From positions 372,001 through 436,000 of the forward strand of contig CATLFB010000001.1 of NCBI GenBank assembly GCA_949927415.1: 64,000 nt of DNA, read 5' to 3'. This stretch comes from an uncultured Candidatus Melainabacteria bacterium (lineage in GTDB: Bacteria; Cyanobacteriota; Vampirovibrionia; Gastranaerophilales; Gastranaerophilaceae). Within the stretch, counting starts at the first letter, position 1. Each line of letters starts with the position of its first letter. Under the pieces are notes generated by a model. The model did no database searches. It saw only the letters and a list, made by a program, of their open reading frames with translations, and was not told the DNA's origin. Positions 44,608 to 55,883 of this stretch are shown one piece after another. The position numbers were made by a program, and so were the translations under genes.

Positions 44608-45186
44608 ATGACAGATTTTTGCGAAAACAATTTAATAAATCCGAATTGGGCAAAACATGGATACATTCAAGTGTACACCGGAAACGGAAAGGGCAAAACA
44701 ACAGCATCATTGGGACTTGCTATGCGGGCGCTCGGGAGATGCTGGAAAGTTTTGATAATAATGTTTACCAAAGGCGGAGACGATTACGGGGAATTGAATT
44801 CGTTCAGAAATCTTTCGCCCGAAATTTCCAAAAACCTGACTATCATACAAGCCGGACTGGACAGAATAGTTTACGAACAAAACAAGAACGAAAATGATGA
44901 GGCTGAAATCAAAAAGGGATGGGAAATTGCTAAAAAGGCAATTCAAAACGACGAATATAATTTGATAATTCTTGACGAGGCCAATATCGCGATTGATTTG
45001 GGCCTGATTGACCTTGATGATGTTATTGAAGTATTAAAAAACAAGCCTGAAGATATGGAAATCGTTTTGACAGGCAGAAACGCAAATCCGAAGATAATCG
45101 AACTTGCGCATCTTGTATCTGAAATTACACCGATAAAACATTACTGGGATACCGGGATTTCGGCACGTAAGGGGATTGAATACTAA
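44608..45186 (+). CDS. cobO: Cob(I)yrinic acid a,c-diamide adenosyltransferase, copy 1
   Basis: BtuR/CobO/CobP-type enzyme attaching the 5'-deoxyadenosyl group to cob(I)alamin or its precursors. The 192-residue product has the P-loop TGNGKGKTTASLGLAMRALG (Walker A at 25-32), LIIMFTKGG, NLIILDEANIAIDLGLI (Walker B-like) and VLTGRNANPKIIELA. It closely resembles the copy at 55350-55883 but differs in the segment after FTKG and in a 15-residue N-terminal extension. No other cobalamin biosynthesis genes are near, so salvage is likely. Confidence 0.92.
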   Translation: MTDFCENNLINPNWAKHGYIQVYTGNGKGKTTASLGLAMRALGRCWKVLIIMFTKGGDDYGELNSFRNLSPEISKNLTIIQAGLDRIVYEQNKNENDEAEIKKGWEIAKKAIQNDEYNLIILDEANIAIDLGLIDLDDVIEVLKNKPEDMEIVLTGRNANPKIIELAHLVSEITPIKHYWDTGISARKGIEY

Positions 45187-50769: not shown

Positions 50770-50855
50770 AAATTCCCCTTTCTGCAGCCTCGCAATGCAT
50801 TTTTAATTTCCCTTACGTATTCATAAAAAATTTTCGGGCTGAATTATTGACAGTA

Positions 50856-50945
50856 AGGCACCGCACCATACCATACCATACCATACAGCAGATTATGAAA
50901 GGGTTTGAGGCATTTTAAAATTCATTTTTACATTTCGTTACATTC
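50856..50945 (-). repeat. CCATA-tandem element, copy B
   Basis: Four CCATA units (50866-50885), then the conserved GGGTTTGAGGCATTTT stretch and TTTACATTTCGTTACA (50927-50942). Located upstream of the 257-aa gene, same orientation as copies A and C. Confidence 0.85.
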
Positions 50946-50986
50946 TAAAATTTATTAACATATATTGCCGCGGCAGGGTTGCATCT

Positions 50987-51025
50987 CCCCTCTCCTAAAT
51001 TAGGAGAGGGGTTGGGGGTGAGGTC
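50987..51025. repeat. Left 39-bp inverted repeat of the DUF559 unit
   Basis: The 25-bp outer part is a palindrome (CCCCTCTCCTAA and its complement); the inner part is TTGGGGGTGAGGTC. It is the reverse complement of the arm at 51374-51412 with one mismatch. It ends 1 bp from the DUF559 stop codon. Confidence 0.92.
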
Positions 51026-51026
51026 T

Positions 51027-51371
51027 TCATACCTCTTCAACAAAATCTAACAATTTTCTATAGACACCTTCCAAATTATTATCTATTTCGTTATTCCAGA
51101 ATCTTAAAACTTTATATCCTTTAGAAATCAAATATTCAGTTCTTTTGTCATCATAAATTTTATTTTTAATTTCGTTATGCTGCCCGCCGTCAATTTCAAT
51201 AACTATTCTCTTTTTTCTACATACAAAATCTGCAATATAGGGGCCAACAGGATATTGCCTGACAAATTTCACACCATGAAAATTCCTATTTCTTAGCAAA
51301 TTCCACAGAATTTTTTCTTGCGGTGTAATATTTTGTCTTAATTCACGTGCTTTTAAATATTTGTCGTCCAT
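51027..51371 (-). CDS. DUF559 (PD-(D/E)XK, Vsr-like) endonuclease-fold protein
   Basis: A 114-residue member of DUF559, a family with the very-short-patch-repair endonuclease fold. Helical start ARELRQNITPQEKILWNLLR, then the nuclease core: GVKFVRQYPVGPYIADFVC with Asp48, and IVIEIDGGQH with Glu59-x-Asp61 and His65, then the Y-L-I-S-K-G-Y-K-V-L-R-F-W-N end strand. The gene fills the gap between two 39-bp inverted repeats; the right repeat provides the GTGAGG ribosome site 5 nt before the ATG. It interrupts the usual nusA-downstream region. The DNA target is unknown. Confidence 0.93.
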   Translation of the reverse strand: MDDKYLKARELRQNITPQEKILWNLLRNRNFHGVKFVRQYPVGPYIADFVCRKKRIVIEIDGGQHNEIKNKIYDDKRTEYLISKGYKVLRFWNNEIDNNLEGVYRKLLDFVEEV

Positions 51372-51373
51372 AT

Positions 51374-51412
51374 GACCTCACCCCCAACCCCTCTCCTAGT
51401 TTAGGAGAGGGG
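51374..51412. repeat. Right 39-bp inverted repeat of the DUF559 unit
   Basis: Reverse complement of 50987-51025 with one mismatch. Its inner end begins 3 bp from the DUF559 start codon and carries the probable Shine-Dalgarno (minus strand). Confidence 0.92.
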
Positions 51413-51440
51413 AGTTCACTAAAGACATTCAATATTCATT

Positions 51441-55349: not shown

Positions 55350-55883
55350 GTGTTAGAGCATGGTTATATTCAAATTTACACAGGAGACGGAAAAGGCAAA
55401 ACTACAGCATCATTGGGTTTAGCACTTCGCGCGCTGGGTCATGGATGGAAGGTTCTTATTATCCAGTTCACAAAAGGCGACAGCGCAACTTCTTACGGTG
55501 AAATCGTATCTTCATCAAAATTCCTTCCAAACCTTGATGTTGTGCAGTTTGGAATGGACAGAGTATGCTATTCTCATAATGTTTGCATGGACGATTTTAA
55601 AGAAGCAAAAAAAGGCTGGGATTTTGCAAAAAAAGCAATCCAATCCGGCGAATATCAACTGATTATTTTAGACGAAATCAACATTTGCACTTCCATGAAC
55701 ATGATTAAGGTATCAGAAGTTAAAGAAGCCTTAATGAACAAGCCTGAAAACCTTGAAATCGTGTTAACAGGAAGATATGCACACCCTGAATTAAAAGCAA
55801 TGGCTCATCTGGTAACAGAAATGAAACCTATCAAACATTATTTTGATATGGGCGTTATGGCAAGACAGGGAATTGAATATTAA
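55350..55883 (+). CDS. cobO: Cob(I)yrinic acid a,c-diamide adenosyltransferase, copy 2
   Basis: BtuR/CobO-type enzyme of 177 residues, with P-loop TGDGKGKTTASLGLALRALG (Walker A at 12-19), LIIQFTKGDSATSYGE, QLIILDEINICTSMNMI and VLTGRYAHPELKAMAHLV. The GTG start is fixed by GGAGGT 9 nt upstream. It lacks the N-terminal extension of copy 1 (44608) and keeps more of the canonical CobO sequence. It ends at a terminator. Confidence 0.94.
   Translation: MLEHGYIQIYTGDGKGKTTASLGLALRALGHGWKVLIIQFTKGDSATSYGEIVSSSKFLPNLDVVQFGMDRVCYSHNVCMDDFKEAKKGWDFAKKAIQSGEYQLIILDEINICTSMNMIKVSEVKEALMNKPENLEIVLTGRYAHPELKAMAHLVTEMKPIKHYFDMGVMARQGIEY

Follow-up and report, generated by a model that had tools for sequence, protein, structure and literature searches.

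The intrastrand-triplex motif TM, earlier called PIT, was described by Holder et al. 2015 (PMC4666352) and is dispersed in hundreds of bacterial genomes. Of its E. coli type (CCCTCTCCC..GGGAGAGGGTTAGGGTGAGGG), K-12 contains 23 copies and 262 proteobacterial genomes together 3610, and triplex formation in vitro was demonstrated for TMECO, whose sequence differs from that of the repeats described here (PMC4666352). Copies are unusually variable between strains, including related ones, and those of E. coli were reported as intergenic only. Transposases and integrases were never found beside TM, whose origin was left open (PMC4666352), and TM/PIT is among the most widespread unexplained bacterial palindromes. 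The stretch of 64,000 nt analysed here (the window) contains repeats that share the pyrimidine arm, loop, purine arm, short linker and mirror purine tail (GGGTGAGG) of TM/PIT. They differ from the motif as published in that they bound a DUF559 gene and, in relatives, lie in frame inside genes.

REP/RAYT systems (TnpA-REP, REPtrons) also consist of dispersed palindromes with an asymmetric tail that flank the gene of a DNA-processing enzyme, with solo copies elsewhere. However, their enzyme is a tyrosine HUH transposase, whereas that of the window is a Vsr-like PD-(D/E)XK nuclease, and their GTAG/CGTC tag contrasts with the window tail GGGTGAGG; DUF559 modules also differ by inserting in frame in conserved genes. 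A REPtron was rejected for the window, as neither a Y1 HUH transposase (RAYT) nor a GTAG or CGTC tag at the palindrome foot was found. Rickettsia palindromic elements (RPE) likewise lie in frame in conserved genes and are not described as gene-carrying (PMC3733652), whereas the palindromes of DUF559 modules also bound a nuclease gene. Compared with RPE, the window copy is intergenic and gene-bearing, and its relatives have in-frame solo copies.

Among nucleases, the EDxHD homing endonucleases (I-Bth0305I, 3R3P) share with the window module the fold and catalytic residues, mostly site-associated lineages and a presence/absence polymorphism. The window module differs in its triplex-repeat flanks and in that no intron or intein was found, and its 114-aa protein lacks the long DNA-binding extension of I-Bth0305I (PMC3943268). 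Caulobacter VsrA (CCNA_02930) is a DUF559 nuclease too, but its proposed role is VSP-type repair with a methyltransferase. E. coli K-12 YcjD, a DUF559 nuclease of which the function is not known, shares 54% identity with the window protein, and its gene adjoins a TM. No published pairing of DUF559 with TM was found in the literature covered, of which preprints outside PMC and most subscription journals were not part. We propose, with a probability of about 70%, that the window feature is one free-standing instance of a mobile module in which a DUF559 nuclease gene has a TM/PIT repeat at each end, the two in inverted orientation.

The window locus, its repeats and its protein

The features of the locus, in window coordinates, are the following:

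51027..51371, minus strand: DUF559 (EDxHD/Vsr-fold) nuclease gene, 114 aa (Pfam PF04480, 3.7e-39)
50985..51025, plus strand: TM repeat on the 3' side of the gene, hairpin CCCCTCTCCTAAATTAGGAGAGGGG with mirror tail TTGGGGGTGAGGTC, tail toward the gene
51374..51414, minus strand: TM repeat on the 5' side, inverted copy (40/41), tail toward the gene
51376..51381, minus strand: GTGAGG in the repeat tail, from its sequence a likely Shine-Dalgarno, 4 nt 5' of the ATG
50842..50945, minus strand: (ACCAT)4-containing dispersed repeat, about 100 bp long, abutting, 12 copies in the window genome

A preliminary description of this DNA had placed the gene between near-identical inverted repeats, each a 25-bp palindrome with a tail, and both points hold. 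The arms are 41 nt each, inverted, 98% complementary (40/41) and separated by 348 nt, and in each a 25-nt palindrome (50987-51011 and 51388-51412) is followed by the tail TTGGGGGTGAGGTC. The stop codon lies 1 bp from the left arm, as first stated, and nusA with its terminator is directly upstream of the gene, where the preliminary description had put them. Two distances needed correction: the ATG is 2 bp rather than 3 bp from the right arm, and GTGAGG precedes it by 4 nt rather than 5. This GTGAGG in the upstream arm is likely the ribosome site of the gene. The suggestion that the left arm could form a terminator hairpin is unsupported, since no T-run follows either arm, and the left arm is therefore not a canonical terminator. 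PIT motifs were without terminator activity in work cited by PMC4666352.

The layout had been thought to match no named system; its repeat part, however, is already known as the TM/PIT triplex motif. Judged on sequence alone, the window repeat has the TM architecture, with a pyrimidine arm, a loop, a purine arm, a two-base linker and the mirror-image purine tail. Both arms satisfy the architecture scan, and a sequence-agnostic triplex-motif scan of the whole window hit exactly these two arms. The exact TMECO pattern (CCCTCNCCCN3-6GGGNGAGGGN3GGGNGAGGG) is not matched by the arms, which read CCCCTCTCC...GGAGAGGGG TT GGGGGTGAGG and thus present the same architecture with another stem sequence. 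The exact core GGAGAGGGN{2,10}GGGTGAGG occurs four times in the window genome, twice as the window arms, and its reversed control not at all, an occurrence beyond what chance would give.

The window protein matches the Pfam DUF559 model in full, and its family matches are confined to the DUF559, REase and Vsr families. In an alignment of 31 sequences, residues E19, D48, E59, D61, H65, D74, R90 and W92 (window numbering) do not vary, and the active site accordingly looks intact. Its AF2 model (pLDDT 90) comes closest to the solved folds of 3hrl, which is an endonuclease-like Neisseria gonorrhoeae protein, of the EDxHD homing endonuclease I-Bth0305I (3r3p; E 5.5e-05) and of E. coli Vsr. Sequence and fold comparison of the model together assign to the protein an EDxHD/Vsr-like nuclease core. 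A Vsr mismatch endonuclease was rejected, given a TIGR00632 score of 20 bits against a cut-off of 97.85 and no DNA methyltransferase recognised among the listed ORFs around the gene. A standard intron homing gene was also rejected: the enzyme fold does match, but Rfam detected no intron at the window locus and no intein domain appeared among the Pfam hits of fused ORFs. The same Rfam scan returned no convincing RNA family. PADLOC gave only weak local matches at the locus, and a defence-system label is unsupported.

The abutting (ACCAT)4 repeat is probably an element separate from the DUF559 module, and may be promoter-like or MITE-like, or a multi-copy target. In three of its 12 copies, including that of the window, a TM adjoins the repeat at one and the same position (L002, L003, L300-L310). 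Elsewhere in the window genome (L002 1501-1591; C1:475952-476042), a solo TM is followed by about 33 nt that resemble the 3' end of the window DUF559 gene, which is probably the relic of a deleted module. Elsewhere in the window, two similar genes on the plus strand (44608-45186 and 55350-55883) look like paralogues of cob(I)alamin adenosyltransferase (CobO type).

Association of DUF559 with the triplex motif

The 80 DUF559 loci closest in protein sequence were gathered with one genome per species, blind to repeats; they come from Gastranaerophilales, Pseudomonadota, Patescibacteria, Chloroflexota, Planctomycetota and other taxa. TMs were detected by architecture without fixed sequence, under a strict definition of our own (Y-rich arm, loop, complementary R-rich arm, short linker and mirror R-rich tail, with A or T opposite A). 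A TM was found at most 300 nt from DUF559 in 59 of the 80 loci (46 upstream, 46 downstream and 33 on both sides). TM density was 2.59 per kb near DUF559 and 0.056 per kb elsewhere in the same loci, an enrichment of 46x (p 2e-86, sites treated as independent), and shuffled flanks yielded no TM. The association thus follows from comparison across loci: homologues are not rarely flanked, nor unrelated genes flanked as often, the two outcomes that the preliminary description had weighed against its own reading, and the placement between two arms, which it had proposed to count, recurs at the 33 loci just mentioned. The 21 TM-negative loci count against the module reading; given the strict definition, some of them may carry variants like the nested hairpin at prmA.

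The same comparison revealed inverted ends. The two TMs nearest to a DUF559 domain, compared over 129 domains, stand in inverted orientation 48 times and in direct orientation 12 times (p 3e-6). Next to stand-alone genes, both tails point inward in most cases, the window among them, and this arrangement is the commonest in relatives; therefore, GGTGAGG precedes the start codon of stand-alone DUF559 genes. For copies inside genes, the tails mostly point outward.

DUF559 and the repeat also co-occur between genomes. Among 59 relatives, including the window genome, the exact core was present in 11/11 genomes with a full-length DUF559 and in 7/48 of the others (p 1e-7). A survey of 292 Cyanobacteriota genomes counted 93 with both, 33 with DUF559 only, 39 with the repeat only and 127 with neither (p ~6e-18; p 8e-11 in the family of the window). 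The observed overlap was reached in 0/20,000 within-genus label permutations, and one genus was split 10/10 vs 0/11. In Cyanobacteriota genomes, the core pattern matched 2353 times and the same pattern reversed 25 times.

The 39 genomes with a repeat and no detected DUF559, as well as the 33 of the reverse kind, count against the module reading. The former are consistent with an alternative in which TM owes its spread to another process, such as recombination or replication at hairpins prone to triplex formation, and two copies trap DUF559 between them as a composite passenger. The same can be said of solo TM copies, which far outnumber modules, and of O157:H7 E. coli, which keeps about 15 TMs, apparently without ycjD. 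Against this stand the 46-fold enrichment near DUF559 relative to the rest of the same loci and the fact that the supposed passenger belongs in every case to a single nuclease family, whose active site is invariant. DUF559s of one insertion site mostly form clades, which also argues against a passenger, and no other mobility gene has been reported beside TMs (PMC4666352). We regard this alternative as unlikely.

Two variations on the repeat were observed in passing. In a variant TM of prmA (L242, L279-L281), a small additional hairpin (CGAAATC...GATTTCG) separates the purine arm from the mirror tail GGGGTGGGG. Regularly spaced TM arrays lie beside DUF559 in one locus (L015, after 3324), with a spacing of about 60 bp, and in Bradyrhizobium (e.g. 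L044, L050, L070), with a spacing of about 113 bp.

In-frame insertion, empty sites and site-specific lineages

Many DUF559 domains lie in frame inside long open frames of other proteins. Hosts identified by Pfam are PriA, RecG, IleRS-type class I tRNA synthetase, UvrD helicases, IspE (GHMP kinase), PrmA and MmeI, and also LplA/LipB, UreE, a radical-SAM protein, an M14 peptidase and others; no intein domain was among the Pfam hits in these fused ORFs. Repeats inside genes are free of in-frame stop codons and code for peptides such as PSPLVGEGRVRG, PSPQPSPTRGEG and SPSPLVGEGRVRG, so the frame of the host protein stays open. Fusions recur in separate genomes, with ten in PriA and four in PrmA, and others are found in large cyanobacterial contigs. 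This recurrence bears on the idea that a terminator-type GC-rich palindrome beside a small gene reflects coincidence, base composition or an assembly artefact, the fused ORFs being misassemblies. Many of the surveyed genomes are indeed metagenome-assembled (MAGs), and palindromes adjacent to genes are common. However, the recurrent fusions, the empty result with shuffled flanks, the 25 reversed matches against 2353 and the presence of the pairing in the finished E. coli K-12 genome already contradict that idea, which we consider highly improbable.

Single sites were found in several states. At one codon position of prmA in one genus (40 genomes), four full modules and three solo hairpins stand beside about 29 empty alleles, every one in frame; one further allele looks degraded. 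In priA of the window genus, G010 has a full module, G007 a 49-bp solo remnant built from the two outer module ends and 10 other genomes no insert. At the rsmA-ispE junction of that genus, G007 and G013 have a module, G004 and G010 decayed repeats and most others a plain overlapping junction. DUF559 thus occupies four sites in the window genus: downstream of nusA (window), priA (G010), ispE (G007 and G013) and a radical-SAM gene (G012). Empty sites in relatives, which the first reading of this DNA had pointed to as a check, were retrieved at prmA and priA, so that both in-frame insertion and the empty, solo and full states come directly from comparison of genomes. Downstream of nusA, the relatives in the genus that could be read have neither a TM nor such a module, and the others are too diverged. 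No clean target-site duplication was found at the prmA and priA junctions, where linkers differ between occupied and empty alleles; this is a point against the module reading. An insertion sequence or MITE was rejected for lack of a known-class transposase (none between the window arms by Pfam) and of a visible target-site duplication.

These insertions also matter for a reading in which DUF559 is a Vsr-like host nuclease for repair or surveillance, the repeats are regulatory sites or substrates (e.g. for triplex or hairpin cleavage) and the pairing is regulatory rather than mobile. The fold resembles that of Vsr, the repeat tail is the likely ribosome site in the window, and Caulobacter VsrA causes an SOS response upon loss of a cytosine methyltransferase (PMC12907096), all of which would suit such a role. 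In-frame insertions in PriA, PrmA, IspE and MmeI with empty sister alleles are, however, unexpected for a housekeeping repair gene, and the listed ORFs around the window gene include no recognised DNA methyltransferase. A purely regulatory pairing therefore appears improbable.

The proposed module is further characterized by its lineages. A tree of 130 DUF559 domains groups the ten PriA copies, which stem from several genera, in a single clade (support 98); the five radical-SAM copies (85), the two MmeI copies (97) and the two IspE-internal copies (97) are each grouped likewise. IspE-N-terminal and PrmA DUF559s belong to a common clade, and site specificity is therefore not absolute. Clades that are mostly site-specific, as seen in this comparison, are the pattern that would be expected of a homing-type element that now and then moves to a new site. 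Disagreement between the host tree and the DUF559 tree at priA was considered as a demonstration of homing and rejected (AU p 0.17); because it is not significant, transfer between species at a single site lacks support. One IspE frame (L030 1825-3555, L197) has two DUF559 domains from different DUF559 clades, one N-terminal and the other inside the kinase.

Proposed movement of the module and E. coli ycjD

We infer that the module is mobile and that DUF559 is the enzyme moving it. The nuclease would most likely cut a target, which may be an allele still empty or a hairpin resembling a TM, and the gap would then be filled with a copy of the module, or of a solo TM, by host recombination or replication repair. 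When a module is lost, a solo repeat would remain. The triplex- or hairpin-prone ends may be recognised by the nuclease or by the repair machinery. In intergenic modules, the inward tail of the upstream repeat would double as a ribosome site, and in genes the repeats would act as stop-free linker peptides such as PSPLVGEGRVRG, leaving the host protein open. The minimal mobile or homing-type unit suggested in the preliminary description is well supported by comparison, through the flanking, the co-occurrence, the variety of sites and the three states at prmA.

These observations suggest that DUF559 is the long-missing partner that spreads the TM repeat, and make it a candidate mobility gene for TM/PIT. 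If correct, this would explain odd in-frame insertions in essential bacterial proteins. More tentatively, and at somewhat less than even odds, DUF559-TM modules may represent a distinct class of prokaryotic mobile elements, in which a homing-type nuclease recognises triplex or hairpin ends, spreads itself and solo repeats, invades essential genes in frame without splicing and drives TM/PIT in hundreds of species.

The candidate is present in E. coli K-12 as ycjD and hence testable in a laboratory strain. The end of ycjD lies 167 bp from the published TMECO no. 9, one of 23 (chance ~0.003 for one given gene), and another TM-like palindrome extends over the stop codon of ycjD. The gene was detected in 3365 of 5426 complete E. 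coli genomes. In ycjD-negative genomes, the eefRABCD operon occupies the locus (also PMC12817139), and these were therefore rejected as precise empty sites. TM copy number is uneven in E. coli, being mostly 15 to 32 in the listed strains and 2 to 4 in some. In IHE3034, ycjD is absent at the fabI-sapF locus, and the strain has a single TMECO (Holder; PMC4666352). The link between ycjD and TM within E. coli is not clean, because O157:H7 records have about 15 TMs in a lineage whose strains appear to be without ycjD, as judged from strain 7784, which is without it and which we take to belong to that lineage. In the fabI-sapF interval (L243-L248, L297), ycjD and its TM stand in place of the eefRABCD efflux operon, and arrival of the module may have accompanied the loss of eefRABCD in E. 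coli.
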